From positions 1-40,720 of IMG/VR virus record IMGVR_UViG_3300046002_004017: a stretch of 40,720 nt of DNA. One strand, given 5' to 3'. Each line of letters starts with the position of its first letter. Position 1 is the first letter of the stretch. This DNA comes from a virus. The notes beneath the pieces were generated by a model. That model had not been told where the DNA came from. It was given only the letters and a program-made list of their open reading frames with translations, and made no database searches. Made by a program: the position numbers and the translations under genes. Of the stretch, positions 14,372-33,665 are shown in pieces.

Positions 14372-14384
14372 CTTAGGTATCATT

Positions 14385-14423
14385 ACCCCTATAACCGTCA
14401 CCGAAAACGGTAACCCATTGATT
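14385..14423 (-). promoter_or_regulatory. Phage RNA polymerase promoter, late (structural) genes
   Basis: Minus strand AATCAATGGGTTACCG, TTTTCGGTGACGG, TTATAGGGG. The last part resembles the T7 promoter end (TATAGGG), placing the likely first G at 14389. It aligns over about 36 bases with copies at 33.5 and 28.6 kb. It precedes the portal-scaffold-capsid block and would be read by the phage's own polymerase. Confidence 0.85.
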
Positions 14424-26035: not shown

Positions 26036-28489
26036 CTAAGCAAAAAAATATTCGCTATCCAATACTACGTTTATATCCAAGTCACCATAAGGTGGTAGCT
26101 CAGGTAACTCTTTAACTAACTCACCTGCCCCTGAGTCCACGAGTTGACTTATGATTTCATCTCTGAATTTAGCTAGGACATCTTCAGAATACTGAATCAC
26201 AAAGGCTTCTCTAAGTGTCTGCGCTAATACACCTGTGTCACACGCATGGACACCATAGCTATCGTGAATCATTGAGTAACTATTGATACCAGCAGATTTA
26301 CACATAGAGATAGTACGCATCATGTGAGCAGCATCACAGCTATGTACGAAGTTAGGTGAGATACCAGCAGATTGCTTTCGGGGGTTTATATCAGTACCTT
26401 GTCGGTTAAACTGTATGCGTACTTTCCTCCCTCCTGAAAAGATATTAACTTCTTCAGCTAACTGTGTGGTATAGAACTGTCTCACGGGTAATCCTGTAGG
26501 TGTATGCCATACCACAGGTAGCCCATTACTTGAGACAACCTTAGCGACATCCTGTAACCACTTCATAGCAGCTTCGGCAGCGACTACAACTTGGCTGATA
26601 GCTCTCAAGTTTTTATCTGCTAGGTAGTAAGCTGTTCTTGAGATGTCTACAGTTTTATCTCTAAACTTAATACTTCCTTCTTCTAACATAGTGTCTAGTT
26701 CCTGTACTAGCTGGTCTCTCATACCGAAAGCTGTTACTGAGTAAGGTCTAGTCATTGTGTTTCTCTTAGTCAACTTACGACCAATCGGTTTGTTTACCCA
26801 GTGGTCTCCCTCACGATATAGAGCAGTCTTCCAATTGATTGCCTCTAGGACACCTGCATCAGCATCAATATCTAACATACCTTGGACAACATTAGCGACT
26901 TCTTGATAGATGTCTGAAGGTTTCTTTGAGGGTACTAAATTGGTAGCTTTACCCCCTATGCTGTCTCTTAGCATTGCTGAGAAGTTCTGTAGTCCATTGC
27001 AAGAACCATCAAGAGCTATGGCAATATGTGATACATAGTCAGACCCTTGCATTGTGTAACCTAACCATTCAAAACAAGCAGCTAGGAATAAGAATGGTTT
27101 ATCTGCTAATAACCAAAAACGATTACCTTCAGTAGGTCTTAGTGCTGAATCTAATATAGCATCTGTATTCTCTTCAGCCCATTCAATACGTTTATCAAAG
27201 TCTACTTTGTCATAGCCGAAACAGTTAGCTAAATGAATGGCTAACCATGCGACACCCTCAGTACCTAGCGGTTTACCTTCAGCAAACTGAATGAGTGCCT
27301 TACCTGAGTCATCAGATTGAGGGTTAACAAAGCCGGGTATCGCATAAGCCCTGCCTCTCCAGTCTAATACGTGAGGAAAGTAGATAGTATCTTCATTGAG
27401 AAACTTTTCAGCTACCCATAACTTTTGACTTAAGGCTATCACTTTAGCTTTAGCTTTAAAGTTTTCATTATAGGTACTAGCTGCTTTACCTTTCCATAAC
27501 TTAAGACTATCAGGGTTAGTGTCTATGTCGATAGGTTTATCTGGCATAGCCTTACCTTCTTTAAAAGGTAACTTAGCAATTCCACCACCTGTAGTTTCCC
27601 ATAGTTCTTTCATGACTGAGTACACAGCCTTGTTAATCTGCCAAGGAGTATCTTGTAGTGCATTAAGTGACTCATAAACGATAGGCATATCTACGTGTTC
27701 TAACTCTTGTAGGTAAGCCTTGTTGCGAGTCTTCATGATACTTAGAGGTGTCTTAAGATACCCACCATCAGTAGGTGTTGACCAAGGAGTAGGCTTAGAG
27801 ACCATCGGGAGATACAAAGGGGATAACAAAGAGCAGGTCTGATTCTGTAGAGCTAACCATACCTGTAGAGAATCTGTAGGTTCAATGTAGTACACAGCCT
27901 TATTCTTAGCTTCATTATGTAATGTTTTCTTAATTAGATTTAAACTCTCTACCATATCTAAAAGTTTAAAACCTAGCTGTAATCTTAAGTCAGTCTCTAA
28001 GACTATCTTATCAACATTACCTAACTTAACTTGAGCACCTTGTATAACCTTACGTTTATGCTGGTCATTAGCAGCAGTCCCCTTAAGGTTGTCTAGAATC
28101 TTACGCATAAGCCTAGGCTGTTCTTTATTAAACTCTCTGTAGTTGAGTTCATCTTCTAACAGTGTAGCGATAGCGATAGCCATTGAAGCTAACTTTTCTC
28201 TACTAGAGATACCATTGATAACTCTCTTCAGGGTTAAGTAAGCTACTTCTTTATGTCCTACTAACTCAAAGTATTGAGCAGTCCTAAAGAATCTCCTAGC
28301 ATAACCACTTTTAGTATCAGCACTAAATTTATCTAGGAGTTCAATCATAGGTGCTAAAGAGTTCTCAATGAGTACAGCACCTACACGGTTATTATCTTGT
28401 CCTTGTTTATCTAAACTTTTGAAGTAAGCTGCTACGCCAAGACTCCCCATCTCTGTCTCTAATTCTATTTGCTTATCTAGGTTACTCAT
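26036..28489 (-). CDS. Single-subunit DNA-dependent RNA polymerase (T7 gp1-like)
   Basis: This 817-aa enzyme has all expected signatures: DWRGR at 376-380, motif A DGSCNGLQNFSAMLRD with catalytic D494, motif B RKLTKRNTMTRPYSV (catalytic K near 572-575 and Y583), and motif C MIHDSYG with H742 and D743. It ends SEYFFA, the aromatic-Ala tail needed at the active site in T7 (FAFA). It transcribes all middle and late genes from the motif described at 14.4, 26.0, 28.6 and 33.5 kb. Length is slightly below T7 (883 aa). It has its own phage promoter upstream. Confidence 0.97.
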   Translation of the reverse strand: MSNLDKQIELETEMGSLGVAAYFKSLDKQGQDNNRVGAVLIENSLAPMIELLDKFSADTKSGYARRFFRTAQYFELVGHKEVAYLTLKRVINGISSREKLASMAIAIATLLEDELNYREFNKEQPRLMRKILDNLKGTAANDQHKRKVIQGAQVKLGNVDKIVLETDLRLQLGFKLLDMVESLNLIKKTLHNEAKNKAVYYIEPTDSLQVWLALQNQTCSLLSPLYLPMVSKPTPWSTPTDGGYLKTPLSIMKTRNKAYLQELEHVDMPIVYESLNALQDTPWQINKAVYSVMKELWETTGGGIAKLPFKEGKAMPDKPIDIDTNPDSLKLWKGKAASTYNENFKAKAKVIALSQKLWVAEKFLNEDTIYFPHVLDWRGRAYAIPGFVNPQSDDSGKALIQFAEGKPLGTEGVAWLAIHLANCFGYDKVDFDKRIEWAEENTDAILDSALRPTEGNRFWLLADKPFLFLAACFEWLGYTMQGSDYVSHIAIALDGSCNGLQNFSAMLRDSIGGKATNLVPSKKPSDIYQEVANVVQGMLDIDADAGVLEAINWKTALYREGDHWVNKPIGRKLTKRNTMTRPYSVTAFGMRDQLVQELDTMLEEGSIKFRDKTVDISRTAYYLADKNLRAISQVVVAAEAAMKWLQDVAKVVSSNGLPVVWHTPTGLPVRQFYTTQLAEEVNIFSGGRKVRIQFNRQGTDINPRKQSAGISPNFVHSCDAAHMMRTISMCKSAGINSYSMIHDSYGVHACDTGVLAQTLREAFVIQYSEDVLAKFRDEIISQLVDSGAGELVKELPELPPYGDLDINVVLDSEYFFA

Positions 28490-28587
28490 AGTTTTCTCCT
28501 AAGGGATAGTTGTGATTAGATTACTATCTATGTAATAGAAATCCATAAGACTACTCATTAAGTAATCTTATGGTTTACTACTAGTAT

Positions 28588-28606: not shown

Positions 28607-28626
28607 TATTATTATAAGTATTCTCT

Positions 28627-28666
28627 ACCGCTATAACCGTCACTGAAAACTGTAAGTCATTGATTC
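28627..28666 (-). promoter_or_regulatory. Phage RNA polymerase promoter upstream of its own polymerase gene
   Basis: Minus strand AATCAATGACTTACAG, TTTTCAGTGACGG, TTATAGCGG, nearly identical to the 33.5 kb copy apart from two changes. Likely first base at 28631. It lies about 140 bases before the polymerase ATG and would give positive autoregulation. Confidence 0.85.
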
Positions 28667-28754
28667 TTACTACTAAGTGATTGTTTCTTAAGAGAAACTT
28701 TCCGTATTCATTAAGACAAACTACGGTCAAACTATACTCTAACTCATTGATTAA

Positions 28755-28810
28755 CCGGGTGATAAACGAGATTTTAAGTCTCTTGTGTCTACCAATTTCA
28801 CCACCCGGGC
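28755..28810 (-). other. Candidate attP: 5' half of a tRNA-Leu(UAA) gene
   Basis: On the minus strand GCCCGGGTGGTGAAATTGG, then TAGACACAAGAGA, CTTAAAA, TCTC reproduces the acceptor 5' strand, D-arm and anticodon arm of proteobacterial tRNA-Leu(UAA); the anticodon TAA lies within CTTAAAA. After the anticodon stem the match ends: no variable arm, T-arm or CCA follows. It lies 28 bp downstream of the integrase stop, the usual attP place. Known relatives with tRNA-Leu-derived attP beside int include the T7-like cyanophage P-SSP7. The last seven bases, CACCCGG, are complementary to CCGGGTG at the tRNA 5' end. Confidence 0.75.
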
Positions 28811-28838
28811 TTGGGATAAGTCCTTGAATTTAAAGACT

Positions 28839-29909
28839 TCAGTGATTAGCTACTAAGGGTAGTTTGACTACAGTTTGACTAGAATAAGACAAACTATGGG
28901 CAAACTCTTGGTGTCCTTTAGAGCCTGTATTTATTACTTTTACTACATCTTGCAGGTGTACTTCAGATAACTGAGCATACTTTAAAGTGGTGCTATAACT
29001 CTTATGCCCTAACCATGCTTGTACTCTTTTTAAGTCAACTCCTTGAGCTACTAAACGACTAGCACAAGTATGTCTTAAGCTGTGAATAACAAAAGTAGAG
29101 TCACTTTGATACCCTAAGTGTTTCCTAAAGTGTAACCAATAGGATTCTACCATGTCTATTGTGTAAGGGAATGGCACAGGAAGACCCCTACGAAGCTCTA
29201 GGACACGTTTCATTGTATCGGTAAGGGGTTTGTGTAGGGTCTCTCCTGATTTCGTGTCTGTGAACCTTACAGCACTACTTTTGAAGTCTACATCAAACCA
29301 AGTTAACTTTAATACTTCACTTAATCTATTACCACTACTTAATAAAAATTCAAATAATCCTGCTTGTTCTTCAGTGTAAGAATTATTGAAGAAGCGCATC
29401 ATACTGAGTTCTTCATCATCAGTCAATACTCTATGTCTACTAGGTGGTTCTTTTAAAGCTTTAATCTTAGGAGCATAACTTAACTTGCCCCATTCAATAC
29501 ATAAATTAAGTAGTGTCCTGAGAGTAGCTAACTTACGGTTAATCGTAGCAGGTGAGTTATTGATACCCCTAAGTTTAATCGTTATGTCTCTTATGGTTTC
29601 ACTAGTAACACTTGAGACATCTTTAGTTATATCTAAGTGTTCACTTAATAATACCCAGTTCTGACTTACTTTATACTCACTCTTGTTGCCTTTCCAGTGT
29701 GACTTCACGGCTAACTTAAAGGCTTCATCAAGGGTAAATACTTTAGATTTCTTAAGTATTCCCCAAGATTCTTTTAACATCTCAGCCTCAATCAAAGCGT
29801 GTAACTTGAGAGCTAAAGTTTTATCTTTAGTCTTTGTAGATTTTCTATGTCTTATTCCATTGATAGTTAAATCAATTTGCCATATTCCATACTCATTTCT
29901 TTCTAACAT
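28839..29909 (-). CDS. int: Tyrosine-family integrase
   Basis: This 356-aa phage integrase has an N-terminal arm-binding-like region, a core-binding SAM-like domain (about 60-150), and a catalytic domain with the full set R195 (GNRLSEVLKL), K220, H276-x-x-R279 (HSLRHTCASRL), H302 (WLGHKS) and nucleophile Y311 (TTLKYAQL). It would catalyse integration and, with a directionality factor, excision. No excisionase is obvious, though several small early proteins could serve. It lies 9 bases after the MarR-like gene and is followed by the tRNA-derived attP candidate. Integrase is absent from T7 itself but known in some marine T7-like phages. Confidence 0.95.
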   Translation of the reverse strand: MLERNEYGIWQIDLTINGIRHRKSTKTKDKTLALKLHALIEAEMLKESWGILKKSKVFTLDEAFKLAVKSHWKGNKSEYKVSQNWVLLSEHLDITKDVSSVTSETIRDITIKLRGINNSPATINRKLATLRTLLNLCIEWGKLSYAPKIKALKEPPSRHRVLTDDEELSMMRFFNNSYTEEQAGLFEFLLSSGNRLSEVLKLTWFDVDFKSSAVRFTDTKSGETLHKPLTDTMKRVLELRRGLPVPFPYTIDMVESYWLHFRKHLGYQSDSTFVIHSLRHTCASRLVAQGVDLKRVQAWLGHKSYSTTLKYAQLSEVHLQDVVKVINTGSKGHQEFAHSLSYSSQTVVKLPLVANH

Positions 29910-29918
29910 AATAACCTC

Positions 29919-30329
29919 CTAAGTAGTGGTTAATACTTTCGTTATTCTATTACCAATAAAAGAAATTAACTCACGGCAAACTTCAGCACCTTTTGGGGTT
30001 AACGTGAGTAACATTCTGCGTCTATCATTATAATCAACCAATGATTTAATAAGGTTTAAACCATCAGTCCCATTACGCCCATCAGCTAATCTATAATAAT
30101 TCCTAGAGCTTCCAGCTTTAGATAATCCTAACGCTGCCCCTACATTGCTAATATCCACAGGCTCTTCTTGACTGGCTATATAGAGTAAATACTTCACAGT
30201 TTGCGCCTCTACAGTTTCATGGAGATGTTTCTGTAAGAGACTCTCAAAGTCCATTAAGATACCTGCGATTCGTCTATCTTTTACAACTAATAATGATTCT
30301 GAGTTTATAGCATTCAATTTCGTATTCAT
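29919..30329 (-). CDS. MarR-family winged-helix regulator, candidate lysogeny repressor/switch
   Basis: This 136-aa protein has an N-terminal helical dimerisation part and a winged helix: DISNVGAALGLSKAGSSR as helix-turn-helix, then DYNDRRRMLLTLTPKGAEVC, the MarR wing signature (D-x-R-R ... L-T-x-x-G). It binds DNA as a dimer by family analogy. The ATG at 30329 has AAGGAG seven bases upstream. The order promoter with dyad, small gene, regulator, integrase suggests it controls its own operon or the early lytic promoter. Most temperate phages use cI-type repressors, so a MarR-type switch would be unusual. Confidence 0.82.
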   Translation of the reverse strand: MNTKLNAINSESLLVVKDRRIAGILMDFESLLQKHLHETVEAQTVKYLLYIASQEEPVDISNVGAALGLSKAGSSRNYYRLADGRNGTDGLNLIKSLVDYNDRRRMLLTLTPKGAEVCRELISFIGNRITKVLTTT

Positions 30330-30481: not shown

Positions 30482-30511
30482 ATTATATGATGATTGATTG
30501 ATTAAGGTCAA
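30482..30511 (-). promoter_or_regulatory. Host sigma70-type promoter before the MarR-integrase operon
   Basis: Minus strand TTGACC (30506-30511) and TATAAT (30482-30487) with an 18-base spacer, a near-consensus pair with a perfect -10. It faces the regulator and integrase genes. Confidence 0.8.
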
Positions 30512-32397: not shown

Positions 32398-32422
32398 GAT
32401 TAAATTATCCTTTAGGTTACTA

Positions 32423-32512
32423 TTAAATTAAATTACTACGGATTAACTTACGTTGTCTTAATGTTACTAACATCTCACTACATTCTAAATAAAGGTTATT
32501 TATGTGTTTCAT
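32423..32512 (-). CDS. Leader peptide or tiny early protein (29 aa)
   Basis: The ATG at 32512 has a consensus AAGGAG eight bases upstream and is the first start after the host promoter. The product MKHINNLYLECSEMLVTLRQ plus RKLIRSNLI is helical and basic. It may be a genuine tiny protein or a translated leader for the acidic gene 26 bases downstream. Confidence 0.5.
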   Translation of the reverse strand: MKHINNLYLECSEMLVTLRQRKLIRSNLI

Positions 32513-32567
32513 TTTAAAACTCCTTTTTAATTAACTTACTAAACTACTTATCTACTACTGAGACTCC

Positions 32568-32596
32568 ACAATATATAGATAGTTACTACGTGTCAA
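32568..32596 (-). promoter_or_regulatory. Host sigma70-type early promoter
   Basis: Minus strand TTGACA (32591-32596, perfect) and TATTGT (32568-32573) with a 17-base spacer; TATATT with a 15-base spacer is an alternative -10. It faces the early genes and is preceded by an AT-rich upstream stretch resembling an UP element. Confidence 0.75.
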
Positions 32597-32734
32597 CAGT
32601 TATTTTAAAGAAATAGTAAATTAATAGTAATAAATGAAAAAATAGGTGAAAACTTATAATCAATATATAGATGTCATAGAGTAGCTACCATCACTTCGTT
32701 GACACTCCGCTGGCTATCATATAACAGAATGTAA

Positions 32735-32776
32735 GATAATCATGAGATGACTAAAGATAATCATGAGATGACTAAA
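32735..32776. repeat. Two perfect 21-bp tandem repeats
   Basis: The unit GATAATCATGAGATGACTAA plus A occurs twice without a gap, 32735-32755 and 32756-32776. A 21-bp period equals two helical turns, so two protein-binding sites would lie on the same DNA face. It lies about 140 bases upstream of the early promoter -35. Confidence 0.85.
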
Positions 32777-32785
32777 GATGTATAC

Positions 32786-32832
32786 ATAAGTAAAACTTAT
32801 TGATAACTGAAGATTCCATAAGTTTTACTTAT
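32786..32832. repeat. Nested 15-bp inverted repeats
   Basis: ATAAGTAAAACTTAT (32786-32800) and its exact reverse complement (32818-32832) flank a 17-base centre. Each arm is itself a dyad (ATAAGT, AAA, ACTTAT). This fourfold arrangement is typical of paired operator half-sites or a recombination/replication element. Confidence 0.85.
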
Positions 32833-32919
32833 ATAAAAAAAATAGTGAAATAAGCAATTAAATATATTAAGAGTATACCGACCTGTATACACCTTAAGAA
32901 TCTCTGCTTATTTCACTAT
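32833..32919 (-). terminator. Large-hairpin intrinsic terminator between late and early regions
   Basis: Minus strand ATAGTGAAATAAGCA (32905-32919) pairs perfectly over 15 bp with TGCTTATTTCACTAT (32842-32856) and is followed by T8. Inside the 48-base apical region GTATAC, six bases, GTATAC forms a second stem. It would stop transcription running out of the terminase gene before it reaches the early promoter. Confidence 0.8.
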
Positions 32920-33209
32920 GTTTGCTACTGATTACCCTGCCGATTACCCTTGTATTATCCCCAGTTTACCCTTAAGACATTCCATATCTCTTTACTTCCT
33001 ATATATATCAATCACTTACGTGTTACCTTGCCTTAATCCTGCCGTAGATGTGCATGATTTGTATATAGGGGCAGCTCGTTGAGTATATTCTCGCGACAAT
33101 CTATAGATACCTCCCGATAACCTAAAGAGTATCGCGAGTACCCCAGCGGGGGGAAACCCTACGCTACACGCTAGAGTAACCTACTCATATTTTTTCTACT
33201 AAATTATTC

Positions 33210-33299
33210 CCCCTGTGGGTAATCTTTGAGTAACCTTATGTTTCCCTTGTGGGTAATCTTTAAGATACCTTTTGGTTTCCTTAAAGGTAATCTATCACT
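33210..33299. repeat. Imperfect ~34-bp tandem repeats
   Basis: Two long units share CCTGTGGGTAATCTTT / CCTTGTGGGTAATCTTT and a following ACCTT..G-TTT; a third truncated unit begins CCTTAAAGGTAATCTAT. Repeats of this type flank the terminal redundancy in T7-like genomes. Confidence 0.65.
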
Positions 33300-33456
33300 C
33301 TGCTATAGGATAACTAGGAGATTGCTATAGGAGTCTTATAGATTTATGTTAAGTATTATTTAATACATAATCATGATATAGAATAAATTGTAAGTTAATG
33401 TATAAGAAATGCTACTAGAACACTATAAGAGAATCTATTAGATTATCTAGTAGTAT

Positions 33457-33481
33457 CTTATAGATTATCTTATAGATTATT
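33457..33481 (-). repeat. Tandem ATCTATAAG leader repeat after the 33.5 kb promoter
   Basis: The same 25-bp unit as 14347-14371, placed about 20 bases downstream of the promoter's presumed RNA start. Confidence 0.7.
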
Positions 33482-33494
33482 ATTAGTATTCTCT

Positions 33495-33534
33495 ACCCCT
33501 ATAACCGTCACCGAAAACTGTAAGTCATTGATTC
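33495..33534 (-). promoter_or_regulatory. Phage RNA polymerase promoter at the genome left end
   Basis: Minus strand AATCAATGACTTACAG, TTTTCGGTGACGG, TTATAGGGG; likely first base at 33499. It is the best match to the consensus of the four copies. In T7 such end-proximal promoters (phi OL) help replication initiation and DNA entry. Confidence 0.85.
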
Positions 33535-33608
33535 TTTATATCAAGTGGTTGATTCTTAAGACAATTATTAGGCTACTTTTAGACCTCTTAAAATTACCCT
33601 TTAAAAGC

Positions 33609-33652
33609 TCTAAAAGAGTATCTAATAATGTCTAAAAGAGTACCTAATAATG
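33609..33652. repeat. Two 22-bp tandem repeats
   Basis: The unit TCTAAAAGAGTATCTAATAATG is followed by a copy with one change, 14 bases after the terminase stop. Possibly a remnant of the packaging or end region. Confidence 0.75.
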
Positions 33653-33665
33653 CTATTTATTTAGT

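Follow-up and report, generated by a model that had tools for sequence, protein, structure and literature searches.

The 5' half of tRNA-Leu(UAA) as the probable attP core of a T7-like phage

Genes and tRNA sequence at the locus

The window, by which we mean the whole stretch of DNA that was analysed, is a virus record 40,720 bases long with T7-like gene content. A tyrosine integrase gene (int, 28839-29909, minus strand; Pfam PF00589, 82.5 bits) is located just upstream of the gene for a T7-type single-subunit RNA polymerase (26036-28489, minus strand; Pfam PF00940, 381.6 bits), as in the integration module of P-SSP7 and S-TIP37. When bacterial genome contigs were searched for the integrase we obtained only two relatives, both of them distant. 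Next to int there is an ORF of 136 aa (29919-30329, minus strand), which we assign, by position only, to the slot in which related phages have a MarR-like regulator. The ORF shows no Pfam match; in HTVC105P, HTVC019P and LUZ100 the same slot is occupied by MarR genes. A sigma-70-like promoter, TTGACC-18-TATAAT (30482-30511, minus strand), lies upstream of this ORF and of int and agrees with the consensus in 11 of 12 positions, in a region where promoter-like matches were no more frequent than in shuffled sequences. After the terminase gene, 1.27 kb (32398-33665) are free of ORFs and contain several IHF-like sites and one copy of a promoter-like element. The genome probably has its true left end here, and the record therefore seems to be circularly permuted.

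The int stop ends at position 28839 and thus a spacer of 28 nt separates int from a piece of a tRNA gene (28768-28810, minus strand), which lies upstream of the RNA polymerase gene. From 28810 to 28768 the minus strand reads GCCCGGGTGGTGAAATTGGTAGACACAAGAGACTTAAAATCTC and it continues from 28767 to 28755 with GTTTATCACCCGG. The first 43 nt comprise the acceptor 5' strand, the D arm, the anticodon loop (CTTAAAA) and the anticodon stem except for its last base, and they match, base for base, the 5' half of a complete tRNA-Leu(UAA) that ARAGORN called on contig L053. Past this shared segment the L053 tRNA continues with TCGCTCG and differs from the window. Exact matches to the core were found in the complete tRNA-Leu of L053 and L057 and also at the junction on contig L042, and several other tRNA-Leu genes are ~95% identical to it (E down to 3e-12). 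The plasmid collection contained no exact match to the core, and a literature search with the core sequence returned none. Over the whole window ARAGORN detected no tRNA gene. The Rfam tRNA model scored 28810-28752 with 23.1 bits, under its cut-off of 29 bits, with the variable and T arms missing.

The first-pass annotation had proposed that the phage captured the 5' half of tRNA-Leu(UAA), a claim that would fall if no tRNA matched over the core. It is confirmed by the complete L053 tRNA, which matches 28810-28768 over all 43 nt, and by the complete tRNA-Leu of L057 with the same 43 nt. The range originally given, 28755-28810, stands for 28768-28810; the remainder includes 12 nt which are not part of the tRNA and are able to pair with its nt 3-14. 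L053 itself (IMGVR_UViG_3300013132_001115) is a different element, which carries an integrase and a protein with a reverse-transcriptase domain on the 3' side of the complete tRNA-Leu(UAA). Its int is convergent with the tRNA.

Conservation and layout of the probable attachment site

We aligned five phages at the site, namely the window and four relatives from IMG/VR (L002, L003, L004 and L017). All four relatives carry the same tRNA piece directly after int. Nucleotides 1-42 are invariant in five out of five phages; nt 43 varies, and so do the flanks. L002-L004 have integrases that share 66-74% identity with that of the window (L017 is outside that alignment), and given this divergence chance is excluded as the reason why nt 1-42 are fixed. 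The invariance fits the outcome to be expected if selection acted on the rebuilding of a working tRNA. The anticodon stem-loop is a plausible crossover core, as the shared site of P-SSP7 extends over 39 nt up to the anticodon loop (PMC8776855) and as two of the relatives already diverge at nt 43. Strand exchange would most likely take place within this stem-loop.

Six exact copies of the repeat AGTTTGNC are grouped within 250 bp and flank the core on either side, which is the layout of a lambda-type attP. Elsewhere in the window no stretch of 250 bp contained more than two copies, and the same maximum was observed across 200 simulated genomes. Four copies are located in the 3' end of int (28861-28906), two on the minus strand (28899-28906 and 28888-28895) and two on the plus strand (28872-28879 and 28861-28868), so that two are direct and two inverted. 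The other two are found on the RNA polymerase side (28715-28733, minus strand). The relatives have the repeats at the same positions on either side, although some copies are degraded. We regard all of them as candidate arm sites to which Int would bind. The int-side repeats fall within the integrase reading frame and thus the C-terminus of the integrase and the attachment site share DNA.

Two IHF-like sites flank the core. Between the core and the arm sites on the RNA polymerase side, AATCAATGAGTTA (28740-28752, minus strand) matches WATCAANNNNTTR and is found at the same position in all five relatives, with an exact match in four. Between int and the core, ATTCAAGGACTTA (28817-28829, minus strand) shows one mismatch, and all five relatives have the site at the same position, again with one mismatch. 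Both are candidate sites at which IHF would bind. Over the whole window, however, we counted 10 matches to the IHF consensus compared to 2.6 expected, and one of those near attP belongs to another repeat. The matches at 28653 and 28674 were discarded as IHF sites of the attP: the first begins a repeated element of ~43 bp and the second is beside it. This element, AATCAATGACTTACAG...GGTTATAG(C/G)GGTA, is present near attP (28626-28665, minus strand) and again at ~14.4 and 33.5 kb (14384-14423 and 33494-33533). We infer that it is probably a promoter region for the phage RNA polymerase.

A probable attL and the predicted outcome of integration

A pattern scan with the core returned L042, a contig of 20,012 bases from metagenome 3300029818, on which we can see the junction predicted for the promoter side of an integrated phage. 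The leading 83 nt have no match in any of the relatives; within them, CTGACA-16-TAGAAT agrees with the sigma-70 consensus in 10 of 12 positions. From base 84 the contig continues with nt 1-43 of the tRNA and then with phage sequence. Over the first 300 nt of this part the identity to L017 is 99.3%, and beyond the flank ~20 kb are collinear with the window, with gaps. In all relatives the main alignment to L042 starts at base 84, which is base 1 of the tRNA. Nothing in the plasmid collection covered most of the flank together with the core. Judged by its sequence, L042 appears to be a natural attL, the probable promoter-side junction of an integrated phage, with a host-side flank of only 83 nt.

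Alternatively, assembly could have fused a contig of the host with the genome of a free phage via the shared 43 nt, in which case the attP reading would stand and the natural attL would not. The join does fall on the shared segment, 83 nt away from the end of the contig. As a real junction must also join at the shared segment, the position of the join is not decisive. The final k-mers of many metagenome assemblers exceed 43 nt, which would argue against such a chimera, and we regard it as unlikely.

L042 also bears on the possibility that the fragment is the relic of a tRNA gene which was once acquired and then lost its 3' half together with its role in integration. The complete tRNA-Leu near int in LUZ100, RHEph01, the Limnohabitans phage and Pasto would be in line with such a history. 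However, a relic would not keep 42 nt fixed in five diverged phages while the flanks vary, the core is framed by arm-type repeats at fixed positions, and L042 resembles a site that has been used. We therefore consider a relic extremely improbable. Use of the piece as an attachment site, as had been proposed from the letters of the window, is instead supported by the adjacent int, the arm-type repeats on both sides and the probable attL. It is thus very probable that a T7-like phage with a tyrosine integrase of the lambda type uses the locus as its attP and that the core of the site is formed by the first 43 nt of the host tRNA-Leu(UAA).

On L042 the break is exactly at base 1 of the tRNA, and therefore integration at this attP probably rebuilds the tRNA near int and aims the host promoter at the RNA polymerase gene. 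The int-side junction would combine the phage 5' half with the host 3' half, which would place an intact tRNA gene immediately after int, at a distance of 28 nt and severed from its own promoter. A scripted join of the phage int side with the 3' half of the L053 tRNA gave an intact tRNA-Leu according to ARAGORN, and neither the L042 junction nor attP did. The earlier prediction of a tRNA rebuilt downstream of int thus finds support in the scripted join, and L042 supports a host promoter left at the far junction. Among the contigs newly found with the core we detected no attR (the int-side junction), and in none of them does a relative of the window integrase stop shortly before a complete tRNA. 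It follows from the geometry that the rebuilt tRNA would depend on phage-side transcription, and it would presumably be expressed with the int operon. At the other junction the host tRNA promoter would be followed by the tRNA 5' half and then by the phage RNA polymerase gene.

Predicted RNA structures and related integration modules

Directly downstream of the core, UUUAUCACCCGG (28755-28766, minus strand) is predicted to pair with nt 3-14 of the tRNA in an RNA helix of 12 bp. Its duplex energy is better than that of at least 99.4% of the shuffled sequences in each of the five relatives, and the region folds with -19.6 kcal/mol (z -2.7). The 3' strand of the helix varies and is shifted in L004, and the pairing is largely kept. 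The helix was not significant in P-SSP7, HTVC105P and MedDCM-OCT-S35-C6 (S35-C6), which rules out a downstream inverted repeat common to all phages with a 5' half. The maintenance of the pairing in five relatives despite the changing 3' strand, together with the T-armless tRNA shape seen by Rfam, could indicate that the piece acts mainly as RNA, as a processing or attenuation structure in a transcript running from int to the RNA polymerase gene, and that integration is secondary. On the other hand, the tRNA strand is fixed beyond what the pairing needs (nt 15-42), and distant phages have the same att arrangement without the helix. We consider a primary role as RNA very improbable.

A terminator-like hairpin with a weak T tract is located between attP and the RNA polymerase gene (28543-28573, minus strand; z -6.7). 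Hairpins that differ in sequence occur near this position in all six genomes examined. At the corresponding site P-SSP7 and P-SSP2 have a hairpin that ends in a T-rich tail, HTVC105P one that lacks such a tail, and LUZ100 an annotated terminator (PMC10134795). After integration at the attP, the helix and then the hairpin would stand between the captured host promoter and the RNA polymerase gene, and the hairpin may damp that promoter. As the T tract is weak in the window, the hairpin is also a possible processing site, for example for RNase III.

One further idea, which we hold to be doubtful, is that the capture of a 5' half serves as a regulatory device based on a promoter swap. The host promoter, which should follow the growth rate, would then read through the conserved helix, which would sequester the truncated tRNA, and through the hairpin into the RNA polymerase gene, and the essential tRNA would come under the control of the int operon. 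Leakage through the hairpin would set induction, and silence of the int operon would be lethal to the lysogen. Apart from this idea, the probable attL indicates that integration would swap the promoters of an essential tRNA gene and of the key lytic gene of the phage. Such a swap could bear on the finding that T7-like cyanophages integrated but formed no lysogens (PMC8776855).

The first-pass annotation had set the 5' half against the 3' end carried by most phages that integrate into tRNA genes. The novelty of the arrangement was overstated, as it is known in T7-like phages (P-SSP7, S-TIP37 and pelagiphages). The cyanophages P-SSP7 and S-TIP37 share with the window int, an attP that matches the 5' half of a host tRNA-Leu, and the RNA polymerase gene, in this order, and P-SSP7 also has a hairpin in the interval from attP to the RNA polymerase gene. 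They differ in the tRNA sequence, in the length of the core (39 nt) and in their integrases (~25% identical), and P-SSP7 lacks the downstream 12-bp helix. Integration of both phages is experimental, and for S-TIP37 it was shown to be dependent on int and attP (PMC8776855), whereas for the window we infer it. The Pelagibacter phages HTVC105P and S35-C6 have a MarR-like gene, int, the 5' half of tRNA-Leu(UAA) and the RNA polymerase gene in the same order as the window, though the HTVC105P integrase is only ~31% identical to that of the window. A tRNA-Leu fragment of 46 bp, identical to Ca. Pelagibacter HTCC7211, was described in a genome related to pelagiphage HTVC019P (PMC3861242).

The Pseudomonas phage LUZ100 likewise has its RNA polymerase gene downstream of int; it carries a terminator mapped behind int and has a phage promoter ahead of the RNA polymerase gene (PMC10134795). 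It differs from the window in that a complete tRNA-Leu lies on the opposite strand between the MarR gene and int, and that no 5' half follows int. With the tRNA-dependent lysogeny of mycobacteriophage Fionnbharth the window would have in common that an essential tRNA of the lysogen is tied to the prophage (PMC10865867). In Fionnbharth, however, the core measures ~10 bp, integration does not restore the host tRNA and a complete tRNA gene comes with the phage (PMC10865867), whereas the window has a core of 43 nt, a tRNA that is rebuilt in the scripted join, and no tRNA gene of its own. The window thus does not show the combination of a short core, a tRNA left unrestored and a complete phage tRNA gene.

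What appears to be new is a further clade of T7-like phages to which integration at the 5' half of tRNA-Leu extends, the anatomy of its attachment site, the probable attL and the conserved 12-bp helix predicted between tRNA nt 3-14 and the downstream DNA. A limited literature search returned no earlier description of the probable attL or of the clade-specific helix. A different arrangement, in which a complete tRNA lies next to int on the opposite strand, was observed in the int-bearing T7-like phages RHEph01 (L067, 1238-1319; unannotated in the record) and LUZ100 (L066, 1283-1368) as well as in the Limnohabitans phage (L005, 4955-5043).
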